DNA of 8,452 bases from Candidatus Atribacteria bacterium (GTDB lineage Bacteria > Atribacterota > JALVIU01). The stretch lies in contig JALVIU010000315.1 of NCBI GenBank assembly GCA_027028665.1, positions 1 through 8,452 on the forward strand, given 5' to 3'. Positions 1 to 5,566 of the stretch are shown here, in pieces. The stretch's first letter is position 1. The number at the start of each line of letters is the position of its first letter. The notes beneath the pieces were generated by a model. That model was not told where the DNA came from. It worked only from the letters and a program-made list of their open reading frames with translations, and searched no databases. Made by a program: the position numbers and the translations under genes.

Positions 1-1181
1 AATGTTGCCCGTGCCACTCGTTCAAAAGAGATCTTTGCAACATTTGCTGTAACATAAAGTACTACACCTATAGGAGGGGTAATAGTACCAATCATGAGAT
101 TAAGGATTATAATAAGGCCAAACTGAATAGGAGATATACCAAGAGAATGAGAGATGGGTAAAAGAATAGGAACAAGGATCATCATAGCTGCAATAGCCTC
201 CATAAATAGTCCTACAAATAAAAGAAACAGATCTATAATAAGTAAGATAACTAAAGGACTTGAAGAGATAGATGTAAGCATTCTACCCATCGTCTGCGGA
301 ACTTGAGCCACAGAGAGATTCCATCCAAAAAGCACGGCAGTCATTACAAGAGCAAGGACTACACCATTTGTCTCCACTGTGGAAAGAATCATCTTAGGAA
401 GGTCACGAAATGTAATTTCCTTGTATATAAATATACCAAGGATAAGGGCATAAAATGCAGCAACCACAGCTGCCTCTGTAGGGGTAAATACGCCAGAAAG
501 GATACCAAAAAGCAGTATAATAGGAGCCAATAGGGCCCAAAAGGCCTCCTTAAAACTCTTCCAGAGCTCTTTTGGGGCAGGAAACTTCCTCTTTGGATAA
601 TTCCTTTTCTTTGCTATAAAATATACCATTAACATAAGCGAAAGTCCCATAAGGAGACCAGGGATTATTCCACCTATAAAAAGACCTCCTACAGAAGTGT
701 CTGCAAGGACACCATATATGATCATGGGAAGACTGGGGGGAATAATAGGACCAATAGTTGCAGATGCTGCTGTAACTGCACAAGAAAAATCCACATCATA
801 CCCCTTTTCCTTCATTGCCTCTATCTCAATAGTACCAAGCCCTCCTGCATCTGCAACAGCTGCACCGCTCATACCTGCAAATATAATACTTGCCACAATA
901 TTGGCATGACCAAGACCTCCTGTTACCCAGCCAGATAATGTATCTGCAAAATCAAATATTCGCCTTGTCACCCCCGAATGATTCATTATATTACCCATAA
1001 GAATAAAAAAGGGTGCGGCAAGTAAAGGAAAGGAGTTTGCAGCCATGGCAATCTTCTGAGGCACAATAAGAGGCATAAAATCCCTCATAAATACATAAAG
1101 TAATGAAGAAAATCCCAAAGTTACATATATAGGCATCCCAGAAAGTAGAAGTATTACCCATATTATAAGTATAAATATCAT
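1..1181 (-). CDS. dctM: TRAP transporter large permease DctM (C-terminus cut by window edge)
   Basis: This is the large membrane subunit of a tripartite ATP-independent periplasmic (TRAP) transporter. It forms the ion-coupled transport channel in the inner membrane and works with DctQ and DctP. I translated the frame from the ATG at 1181 to the left edge and found 393 codons with no stop. The protein is a chain of hydrophobic segments with hallmark family motifs: GGLGHAN at residues 88-94, FAGMSGAAVADAGGLG at 101-116 and GPIIPPS at 144-150, then YGVLADTSVGGLFIGGIIPG. Family members usually have about 425-430 residues, so roughly 30 C-terminal residues are missing. The start overlaps the dctQ stop as ATGA, preceded by AAAGGAG at normal spacing, so the two genes are translationally coupled. 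Family assignment is secure; substrate is unknown. Confidence 0.96.
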   Translation of the reverse strand, partial: MIFILIIWVILLLSGMPIYVTLGFSSLLYVFMRDFMPLIVPQKIAMAANSFPLLAAPFFILMGNIMNHSGVTRRIFDFADTLSGWVTGGLGHANIVASIIFAGMSGAAVADAGGLGTIEIEAMKEKGYDVDFSCAVTAASATIGPIIPPSLPMIIYGVLADTSVGGLFIGGIIPGLLMGLSLMLMVYFIAKKRNYPKRKFPAPKELWKSFKEAFWALLAPIILLFGILSGVFTPTEAAVVAAFYALILGIFIYKEITFRDLPKMILSTVETNGVVLALVMTAVLFGWNLSVAQVPQTMGRMLTSISSSPLVILLIIDLFLLFVGLFMEAIAAMMILVPILLPISHSLGISPIQFGLIIILNLMIGTITPPIGVVLYVTANVAKISFERVARAT

Positions 1182-1663
1182 CTTACTTGCTCCTTTTTTC
1201 TAAACATCTCTATAAAGTCTAAAATAGTATAAAAAAGGATAATAGCACTGGCTATAGGAACTATTGCATATATATAGGCATAGGTAAAGAAAAGAGTTAC
1301 AGTAGGTACATCTACGCTTCGTGCAGCCATCCTTATACCCAGGTATATAAGCATACTTATAAAGAAAATGACAATAAGGTGTGTTATTATCTCTATAATA
1401 AATTTTATACTTTTAGGTAAGCTTTTCAAGAGAAACTCTACCCTTATATGCGTATTATGTCTTGTCGCTAATGTCCAACCCAAAAAAGATACCCATATAA
1501 ATATATAGCGAGATAACTCCTCTGACCACACAAGGGGAGAATTTAGTACATACCTAAAAAAGATCTGCATAAGGACTACGGCAAAAAGGATAATGAATAA
1601 CACTATTATTACAAAATCTACAAATCTATCAAGAACCTTTCTTATCTTTTTTGCTTTCTCCAT
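1178..1663 (-). CDS. dctQ: TRAP transporter small permease DctQ
   Basis: This is the small membrane subunit of a TRAP transporter, which pairs with DctM in the inner membrane. It has 161 residues, normal for the family. Four hydrophobic segments can be seen, at about residues 15-37, 49-67, 87-110 and 125-150. The conserved loop after the first segment reads RYVLNSPLVWSEELSRYIF, with the typical W-S-E-E-L-x-R core. The ATG at 1663 is preceded by AGAAAGGAAAAGGT, an acceptable ribosome site. The gene is separated from dctP by 131 nt holding an inverted-repeat element whose G-rich part ends only a few bases before this ribosome site, so its translation may be affected by RNA structure. The 3' end overlaps dctM by 4 nt. 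Confidence 0.94.
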   Translation of the reverse strand: MEKAKKIRKVLDRFVDFVIIVLFIILFAVVLMQIFFRYVLNSPLVWSEELSRYIFIWVSFLGWTLATRHNTHIRVEFLLKSLPKSIKFIIEIITHLIVIFFISMLIYLGIRMAARSVDVPTVTLFFTYAYIYAIVPIASAIILFYTILDFIEMFRKKEQVR

Positions 1664-1680
1664 ACCTTTTCCTTTCTAAT

Positions 1681-1779
1681 CCCCTTAACCACCCTCCCCC
1701 AACCCCTTCCTAACCAGGGAGGAGAAATGTATAGGATCTACTCTTCCCCTTTTGAAGGGGAGGTTGGGAGGGGCTGGCC
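1681..1779. repeat. G/C-rich inverted-repeat element between dctP and dctQ
   Basis: The dctP-dctQ spacer holds two related, inverted, strongly C-rich/G-rich arms in an otherwise AT-rich region (left about 1681-1726, right about 1742-1779). Each arm has its own small hairpin: 1705-1711 with 1716-1722 (loop AACC, one G-U), and 1743-1751 with 1755-1763 (core CCCCTT/AAGGGG, loop TTG). The arms can also pair with each other: by hand, about 20 of 24 positions pair, counting three G-U wobbles. The mRNA (minus) strand of the left arm carries four G-runs at 1703-1706, 1696-1700, 1692-1694 and 1681-1684, with loops of 2, 1 and 7 nt, which is a canonical G-quadruplex pattern. It looks like a dispersed REP- or MITE-type element, but that cannot be shown from one copy. 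No open frame inside it is credible. Confidence 0.75.
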
Positions 1780-1794
1780 TTACCTATGTATCAA

Positions 1795-2778
1795 TTATTT
1801 GATCTCTTCGATCTTTTCCCACATACCTTTTCCCCATTTCTTTTCAAACATTTTAGGCACAACCTTTAATACAGCAGCTCTAAACTCTTCTACATTAGGT
1901 TTAATTATAATCATGCCTTTTTCTTTAAATTTATTTAATAAGGACTTCTCTTTATCTAATATCTGTTCATTATTCCACTTAATTCCATTTTGTACCGCAG
2001 CTTCTACAATTTTCTGATCCTCTGGGGAAAGTTTTTTCCAGAATTTTTCATTTATAACTACAAGTCTCGGAGTAATAATATGTCCTGTAAGTACCAGATA
2101 CTTCTGTACTTCATAGAATTTTGCAGCATCTATGGTAGGAAGTGGGTTTTCCTGGCCATCTACTACATGCTGTTTAAGAGCCAAATAAAGTTCATTGAAG
2201 TTCATTGGTGTAGGTTTTGCACCCCAGGATTTGGCCATAGCCATAAACACCTCATTTTCTGGAACTCTTAGTTTAAACCCCTTCATATCAGCAACTGATC
2301 TTACTTCTTTATCTGTTGTGGTGAGCTGCCTTACACCATAATATGTGGTACCAAGGATTCTCATGCCTCTCTTCTTAATAAGCTGGGCATTGAAATCTTG
2401 ACCAATAGGACCATTCATAGCTTTCATAAGGTGATCCACGCCACGCCATATATATGGTGCCTCAATTATAGATATGGAAGGTACCCACTGACCAAAGTTT
2501 GCAGCACCTTCTGTAACCATCTCTTGCATACCATTTGCCACTGCCTCAATCATATCACGGGAGCCACCAAGCTGTCCCCCAGGATATGCCTGTATCTCAA
2601 TTCTACCATTTGTCTTTTCTTTTACCTCTTTAGCAATAATGCTAATCATCTGAACTGATGGATGGTTTGGTCCAAGTACATCACCCCATCTAATTACGAT
2701 CTTTCCCCCTGCCAATGCAGCAACTGAAAATAGGCTAAATACAAAAACAACCAAAAGCAAAAGAATAAATCTCTTCAT
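1795..2778 (-). CDS. dctP: TRAP transporter solute-binding protein, DctP family
   Basis: This is the extracytoplasmic binding protein that captures the substrate and delivers it to DctQM. It has 327 residues, the usual length. A Sec signal peptide covers residues 1-23 (MKR, hydrophobic core, ALA cleavage site before Gly24). The mature part has the DctP signature: YPGGQLGG at 65-72, GVRQLTT at 148-154, FKLRVPEN at 168-175 and VDGQENPLPTI at 206-216. Arg150, Arg171 and Asn211 sit where this family binds the substrate carboxylate, so an organic acid or sugar acid is likely; the exact ligand cannot be read. The ATG at 2778 follows a strong AAGGAGGG site. Only 28 nt separate it from the upstream regulator gene, with no promoter between, so they are probably cotranscribed. 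The inverted-repeat element follows the stop. Confidence 0.96.
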   Translation of the reverse strand: MKRFILLLLVVFVFSLFSVAALAGGKIVIRWGDVLGPNHPSVQMISIIAKEVKEKTNGRIEIQAYPGGQLGGSRDMIEAVANGMQEMVTEGAANFGQWVPSISIIEAPYIWRGVDHLMKAMNGPIGQDFNAQLIKKRGMRILGTTYYGVRQLTTTDKEVRSVADMKGFKLRVPENEVFMAMAKSWGAKPTPMNFNELYLALKQHVVDGQENPLPTIDAAKFYEVQKYLVLTGHIITPRLVVINEKFWKKLSPEDQKIVEAAVQNGIKWNNEQILDKEKSLLNKFKEKGMIIIKPNVEEFRAAVLKVVPKMFEKKWGKGMWEKIEEIK

Positions 2779-3661: not shown

Positions 3662-5566
3662 CTATGAAAGAAGTTTCTCCAATACATATGAGAGTTCCTT
3701 TGCCCTATAAGGTTTAAACATCACTTCTTTGACAAAGGGAAACTCTTTTCTCAAGGCATCTATCTGGATATCTGTAAACCCTGTAGATATAAGAACCCAA
3801 GGTGGATTATCAAATAAGGAAAGTCTTCTAAGCACCCCTTTTCCATCAAGTCGAGGCATTATCATATCCAGGATAACAAGATCTACATTTTCTTTTTTCA
3901 ATATCTCTAATGCTTCAATACCGTCTTTTGCCACTTCTACACTGTAGCCCATACCGTTTAATATCATGCTCCACATTTTTCTTAACTGATCTTCATCATC
4001 AACGAAGAGAATTTTTCCATTTCCCTTTTTTAAGGACTCTATTTTCTCCTCTTTTGGAGGCATTCCTTTGGCAGGTACCTCTGCCTTTGGTAGGGAAATA
4101 GTAAATACTGTACCCTTCCCCTTTTCTGAAGATACCTTTATTTCGCCACCCATATATGTTATTACACTGTGCACTATAGCAAGCCCCAGACCTGTACCTT
4201 TCTTATTCTTGTGTTTTTTGGTAGTAAAGAAAGGTTCGAATATTTTTTTCATTATGTCCTTATCCATTCCACATCCGGTATCTTTTACATCTATTATGTA
4301 TTCATCATCTTTTTCTCTAAGGATTATCTCTATACTTCCTTCATTTTCTCCTATAGCATCTCTGGCATTTAATAAAAGATTTAAAAATACTTGTGCAAGA
4401 TATGCCTCAGAACCCTTTACATAGGCGACATCTGGCTCATGTATAAATTTTAAGGAGATCGTCTTTGGAAAAGTTCTACTTGCCATATTAATAACATTTT
4501 CTATTATAGAAACAATATCTACCACAGCATTCTTTACATGGGGATCTCTTCTTGCAAATAAAAGAACTTCTTTCGTAAGCGCCTTCCCATTCTCTATGAT
4601 ATCTACAATTTTATCTATATATTCTTCTCGTTTCTTTGGATCAGGAGTAAATCTATAAAGATCAATATATCCAATCATAGCACTTAATAGATTATTAAAA
4701 TCGTGAACAAGGCCACTTACTAAGGACCCTATGGTTTCCATTTTTTGCAACCTTACAAGCTGATCCTGGAGTTTCTTTTTCTCTCTCATATCACGAGCAA
4801 TAACTATTACTTCTCTTTCTCCGTTTACATCTACACTACCTATGCTTACCTCAACTGGCACTCTTGTCCCATCTTTCCTTATATTTTCTGTAATAACCAT
4901 ATATTTTTTCTTTCTCAAAATGCTATCTTTTATATCATCCATTTGCTTTTTTATAAACTCTTCTGGCACAAGTTTATAGGCACTCATGCCAATAAGCTCA
5001 TCCTTTGTATATCCTAAAAGTTCACATGCTGCTTTGTTTACATCTATTATCCTACCATCTGAGCATTTTTCGAAAAAAATGGCATCATATGCATTATTAA
5101 AAAGTTTGTTAAATCTTTCTTCTTTTTCTTCAAGCTCTTTTTGAATTTCTACCTCGCGGGTTCTATCGAGTGCAAAATCCAAAAAAACAGGGAGATTTTC
5201 AATATAAACAAGTTTTGCCTTTATTTCCAAGTATTTCCTTGTTCCATCTGGTAAGAGGATCTCATGTATAACAGATACTCCTCTTGTAAAACCTCTATCA
5301 AGTGCTATATTTATCTCAGAAACTAATTTATCCCTGTTTTCAGGGGGAACAAAGTCAAGTATATTCCTCCCTACAAACTCATTTTCAGTGAAAAATCCCA
5401 TTATCTTTAACATTTCTTTATTTGCATAAACCACCTTAAAATCTACATATGCAAATAAGCCTATGGGGATTTTATCTATAAGTTCTCCAAATTTTTTCTT
5501 TATTTTTTCCTGAAACTTTTCAATAAATACCTTATCCTCTATATCGAAAGAGACTTTCTTTTTCAC
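3662..5566 (-). CDS. Soluble hybrid sensor histidine kinase, PAS-PAS-HisKA-HATPase-REC
   Basis: This is a two-component sensor kinase with its own receiver domain, 634 residues. I see two PAS domains (about 22-137 and 150-262), each with its C-terminal strand motif (LPDGTRKYLEIKAKL; KDGTRVPVEVSIGSV), joined by a short coiled linker. The HisKA region follows, with phospho-acceptor His288 in VHDFNNLLSAMIGY. The HATPase domain has the N box at Asn400, G1 box DTGCGM at 429-434, F box FEPFFTT and G2 box GTGLGLA at 457-463. The receiver has acidic Asp523/Asp524, phospho-site Asp567, Thr595 and Lys618. All catalytic residues are present. No membrane segment or signal peptide is seen, so it senses a cytoplasmic signal. 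The start is GTG at 5566, supported by GGGAGGAG; the first 35 nt overlap the tyrA end. No DNA-binding response regulator is seen nearby. The PAS ligand is unknown. Confidence 0.93.
   Translation of the reverse strand: MKKKVSFDIEDKVFIEKFQEKIKKKFGELIDKIPIGLFAYVDFKVVYANKEMLKIMGFFTENEFVGRNILDFVPPENRDKLVSEINIALDRGFTRGVSVIHEILLPDGTRKYLEIKAKLVYIENLPVFLDFALDRTREVEIQKELEEKEERFNKLFNNAYDAIFFEKCSDGRIIDVNKAACELLGYTKDELIGMSAYKLVPEEFIKKQMDDIKDSILRKKKYMVITENIRKDGTRVPVEVSIGSVDVNGEREVIVIARDMREKKKLQDQLVRLQKMETIGSLVSGLVHDFNNLLSAMIGYIDLYRFTPDPKKREEYIDKIVDIIENGKALTKEVLLFARRDPHVKNAVVDIVSIIENVINMASRTFPKTISLKFIHEPDVAYVKGSEAYLAQVFLNLLLNARDAIGENEGSIEIILREKDDEYIIDVKDTGCGMDKDIMKKIFEPFFTTKKHKNKKGTGLGLAIVHSVITYMGGEIKVSSEKGKGTVFTISLPKAEVPAKGMPPKEEKIESLKKGNGKILFVDDEDQLRKMWSMILNGMGYSVEVAKDGIEALEILKKENVDLVILDMIMPRLDGKGVLRRLSLFDNPPWVLISTGFTDIQIDALRKEFPFVKEVMFKPYRAKELSYVLEKLLS

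Follow-up and report, generated by a model that had tools for sequence, protein, structure and literature searches.

A head-to-head pair of triplex-type repeats as a candidate RNA hairpin between dctP and dctQ in a TRAP transporter operon of Candidatus Atribacteria

Genes and G-runs at the dctP-dctQ gap

The window, an 8,452-nucleotide stretch of Candidatus Atribacteria DNA (contig JALVIU010000315.1), carries a TRAP transporter operon on its minus strand. The gene for the solute-binding protein, dctP (1795..2778; PF03480, E = 3e-86), is followed by dctQ, which encodes the small membrane subunit (1178..1663; PF04290, E = 7e-32). The end of dctQ is overlapped by an open reading frame (3..1181, minus strand) that runs off the window and that, by its dctM position, would encode the large membrane subunit. 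Between the dctP stop codon at 1795 and the dctQ ATG at 1663 lies an intercistronic gap, 134 nt long as RNA, with a Shine-Dalgarno (SD)-like AGAAAGG for dctQ at 1677-1671 on the same strand.

The minus strand of this gap contains four G-runs, GGGGTTGGGGGAGGGTGGTTAAGGGG (1706-1681), which an earlier note on this DNA had read as a potential quadruplex beside the dctQ ribosome-binding site. Direct reading of the strand confirmed the runs of 4, 5, 3, and 4 G's and the loops of 2, 1, and 7 nt (TT, A, and TGGTTAA), the final G at 1681 standing three bases ahead of the SD-like sequence. The runs thus have the make-up expected of a regulatory mRNA G-quadruplex (four runs of at least three G's with loops of 1 to 7 nt), and the G4Hunter maximum is 2.44. 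By themselves, however, they are only mildly unusual, because 37 of 500 dinucleotide shuffles of the window (∼7%) also gave a G3+N1-7 quadruplex motif.

Two diverged triplex-type repeats in inverted orientation

Most of the gap is taken up by an element (1687..1779) that consists of two triplex-type copies in inverted orientation, as seen with a triplex-motif search, shuffled controls, and a sequence model. The search looked for three segments (a pyrimidine [Y] stem, a purine [R] stem, and a mirror R strand) with at most two mismatches and at least five G-G-C triplets. One copy lies on the mRNA strand (1724-1692) and is composed of the Y stem CTCCTCCC (1724-1717), a loop of 6, the R stem GGAAGGGG (1710-1703), a loop of 3, and the third strand GGGGAGGG (1699-1692), with two of its eight triplets mismatched. 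The other copy, on the opposite (plus) strand (1743-1775), is composed of the Y stem CTTCCCCTT (1743-1751), a loop of 3, the R stem AAGGGGAGG (1755-1763), a loop of 3, and the third strand GGAGGGGCT (1767-1775), with two mismatched triplets of nine. Since none of 200 dinucleotide shuffles of the window held even one such motif, the paired organization is not a chance product. The model (A1/R1, built from eight copies) matched the mRNA-strand copy at an E value of 4.3e-7 and the plus-strand copy at 3.6e-8, values given, like those below, by a model whose training included some of the same copies.

A pyrimidine stem, a complementary purine stem, a mirror purine third strand, and short loops, here present on both strands, characterize the intrastrand-triplex repeats known as TM (earlier "PIT"), on which earlier work was reportedly done by Hoyne and Maher. 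The published general pattern is CCCTCNCCC N3-6 GGGNGAGGG N3 GGGNGAGGG, and TM copies lie between genes, where some are paired in inverted orientation, one type with another (Holder et al. 2015, PMC4666352). The window element resembles them in the order of its parts (Y stem, short loop, R stem, 3-nt loop, and G-rich third strand), in its dispersed intergenic copies, and in combining two copies that differ in type and are inverted, an arrangement that five E. coli pairs also show. The G-rich part of TM repeats could likewise form a quadruplex in principle, although NMR on single strands showed a triplex (PMC4666352). The window stems differ in being 8 to 9 long with two mismatched triplets and in having a base sequence unlike the E. 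coli consensus. As the published TM finder, ITxF, allows one mismatched triplet (PMC4666352) and each window copy has two, the copies are diverged relatives rather than strict members of the family. With this qualification, sequence comparison supports well the identity of the element as two diverged, head-to-head, G/C-rich class-II intrastrand-triplex repeat copies, and on the same basis the element is a diverged member of a repeat kind that is already known; a search of Rfam gave no match in the window. Recurrent potential quadruplexes of methanogens (PMC8044849) are also dispersed, intergenic, and G-rich, with hairpin, triplex, and quadruplex all possible, but these are archaeal and have their C-rich tract on the opposite side of the G-runs.

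Seen against this layout, the four-G-run pattern is, on sequence grounds, a by-product of the repeat. The runs comprise the purine arm and third strand of one copy plus one flanking GGGG, the fourth run lying outside the repeat core.

BLAST of the element returned diverged pieces at further places in its own genome. Model R1 matched eight places there, including the two in the window, at E values of up to 0.0026, with weaker ones beyond. The copies are mostly intergenic and lie beside unrelated genes, short and probably spurious open reading frames overlapping a few of them. Against relatives, DNA BLAST reached only 2 of 61 genomes because the copies are too diverged, and model R1 was therefore needed. 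Among the matches listed for R1, at least ∼140 each fell in G017 and G029, both genomes from the phylum of the window. Their typical repeat, CCTCTCCCTTAGAAGGGAGAGGTTAGGTGAGGGTGA, has the layout CCTCTCCC-N6-GGGAGAGG-TTA-GGTGAGGG, which is close to the published TM pattern, and a genome from another phylum (G054) has the same triplex layout with zero mismatches.

Some repeat copies in G017 and G029 stand in direct series ∼300 bases apart (e.g., G029:C46:79604, 79947, and 80260). Two copies in G054 (L018 and L019) directly adjoin near-identical flanks (GGCAAATGCTTTAAAATC...), hinting from sequence that some copies lie inside a longer duplicated stretch. A REP element mobilized by a RAYT was considered as well and rejected, as no REP-associated tyrosine transposase (PF01797, Y1) was found in the element's own genome (G000, 90% complete); the domain scored above the cutoff in 33 of the 50 genomes of the set.

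Stem-loops in the gap and at other dctP-dctQ junctions

RNA folding predicted a stem-loop of the C-rich and G-rich arms (1773-1681, minus strand), in which an outer stem pairs 1773-1769 with 1685-1681 and encloses inner hairpins. The C-rich arm and the inverted repeat described in the earlier note are both present, by sequence and by folding, the C-rich arm with a local hairpin upstream of the G-runs. For the whole 134-nt gap with G4 energies switched on, ViennaRNA, in which G4 parameters are approximate and triplexes fall outside the model, preferred the C-arm/G-arm hairpin at −46.5 kcal/mol. The stem is not followed by a U-tract, and no terminator-like site was found on the mRNA strand at the element. 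The folding energy of the gap was no better than that of its own shuffles (z = −0.2 to −0.5), since good folding is to be expected of any sequence with many C-runs and G-runs, and selection for pairing can therefore not be claimed for the window copy.

We compared 57 dctP-dctQ junctions including that of the window, a non-independent set of paralogues and homologues, none of them a close orthologue, nearly all from the window's phylum. Of the 56 gaps long enough to fold, 47 had a z of less than −1.5 (median, −3.7); the stems were long and near perfect, and most were unrelated in sequence. Among the 44 gaps of 40 to 300 nt, z was below −2 in 34 (median, −3.6), and 37 had an uninterrupted stem of at least 10 bp; in only 6 of the 44 did the eight bases behind the stem hold at least five T's. 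In a small control of other co-directional gaps, z was below −2 in 4 of 20, compared with the 34 of 44 (P = 2e-5 by Fisher's test). Related junction stems carried compensatory changes on both sides, amounting to up to two pairs per group in groups that are small. Folding thus predicts that a stem-loop recurs at the dctP-dctQ junctions of the phylum; unlike the other junctions, the window gap only equals its shuffles.

Several stems were common to more than one junction. The stem GAGGGCAAAGC/GCTTTGCCCTC, with a variable loop, was found in five gaps (L072, L079, L080, L083, and L086). G005, G015, G017, and G029 each contain its exact pattern a single time, always in the dctP-dctQ gap, which suggests a conserved, operon-specific element of RNA (or DNA). 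Two more stems, AGATGCCCTAT...ATAGGGCATCT and GTGGGCAAGGG...CCCTTGCCCAC, are common to several genomes (L030, L035, L037 and L029, L040), the latter with compensatory changes. In other phyla (∼20 loci), the dctP-dctQ gap is mostly shorter than 25 nt or the genes overlap, so hairpins there are not comparable. Our literature search found no paper on dctP-dctQ stem-loops.

The nearest relative of the window's dctP (L021; 64% identical) lies on a contig, JAISQQ010000221.1, that ends before any dctQ. This contig is binned as Accumulibacter and has a much higher G+C content; the bin may be mislabeled, or the dctP gene may have been transferred.

Proposed role and alternatives

The identity of the repeat being well supported, we infer a function for it in the dctP-dctQ gap. 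If the element has any action, it is most likely that of an ordinary RNA hairpin behind dctP and not that of a four-stranded switch. We consider it reasonably probable that the triplex-repeat pair protects the 3′ end of the dctP mRNA, letting DctP accumulate over DctQM, with the quadruplex playing a minor part at most. In the transcript, the two repeat copies would pair with each other into a long stem-loop behind dctP, which would fill the slot that another stem-loop occupies at most of the phylum's dctP-dctQ junctions. After cleavage within dctQM, this stem-loop would block 3′-5′ decay, so that dctP mRNA and protein would be in excess over DctQM, as at malE-malF.

The malE-malF intercistronic stem-loop is described in PMC5927463 as 3′ protecting, as are those behind other binding-protein genes. 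As portrayed there, it shares with the window element a stable palindromic structure lacking a U-tract between genes for a binding protein and a membrane subunit, although the stability of the window structure only equals that of its shuffles. The transporter is of the ABC type there and of the TRAP type here, and protection of dctP is predicted by analogy. On this analogy, the best-supported reading is that the palindromic repeat serves, or is tolerated, as a 3′-protecting hairpin. The earlier proposal that a structure at this junction favors DctP over DctQM thus fits the strong stem-loops at most comparable junctions and the known precedents, but not by way of a quadruplex.

It is also conceivable, if more speculative, that TRAP operons of this phylum have an expanded dctP-dctQ gap (median, ∼120 nt) with a selected stem-loop that sets the DctP excess, and that a triplex-type repeat was recruited here in place of the ordinary stem-loop. 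The stem-loops found across the phylum make binding-protein excess, an old question, testable for TRAP transporters, and this junction pattern is a more useful lead than the quadruplex reading.

Alternatively, the repeat may be selfish or instability-promoting DNA that was passively inserted where the intercistronic gap tolerates it and that leaves the operon unaffected, a reading that we regard as rather unlikely. The scatter of its copies, which mostly lie between genes and have unrelated neighbors, and a folding energy matched by shuffles would suit such an insertion. So would the published work, in which E. coli TM/PIT repeats acted neither as promoters nor as terminators and showed no relation between position and expression and in which TM repeats are linked to genome instability (Holder et al. 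2015, PMC4666352). However, a hairpin of 46 kcal/mol is unlikely to be without effect, because most operons of the phylum hold some strong stem-loop at this place.

The main idea of the earlier note was that an mRNA G-quadruplex beside the SD sequence lowers dctQ translation. This we consider improbable, even though the motif itself is real. Adding G4 energies left the predicted structure the same and shifted the ensemble energy by 0.001 kcal/mol for the gap and by 0.15 kcal/mol in longer context; a G4-containing fold won when the C-rich arm was removed (−26.7 versus −20.8 and −22.8 versus −13.3). The folding model therefore does not support a quadruplex over the hairpin, which stays the predicted minimum in full context, and allows the quadruplex as a minor alternative fold at most, when the C-rich arm is absent. 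In the hairpin state, the SD bases (1677-1671) are predicted to be open, with a pairing probability of less than 0.1. The motif was not found in any other of the 57 dctP-dctQ gaps, which are those of homologues rather than close orthologues, and it occurs in only 2 of the 12 repeat copies checked in the element's own genome, being absent from 10. Together with the preferred hairpin and the open SD bases, this speaks against the quadruplex as a working part and leaves the suggested K+ or temperature switch unsupported. Bacterial G4 effects on translation depend on distance and are inhibitory close to the SD sequence (PMC11087576); a G4 ∼20 nt before the start codon lowers translation in E. coli (work cited therein). 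As 5′ untranslated region G4s further upstream raised translation in the same account, the sign of any such effect is uncertain. G4 surveys that use sequence only can thus be misled, since what looks like a striking quadruplex leader can be one half of a palindrome that is common and dispersed.

Partial RNA polymerase termination at the stem-loop, yielding excess dctP transcript, is very improbable by the usual intrinsic route since no U-tract follows and few junction stems have one. In clostridial ABC importers, internal terminators with few U's, in stem-loops directly behind substrate-binding protein genes, do set the transporter ratios (PMC9045158).

The TRAP operon and an FCD/GntR regulator are adjoined by a gene for a hybrid histidine kinase that has PAS domains and, at its C terminus, a receiver (3662-5566, minus strand; Pfam), which possibly controls the neighboring transporter.
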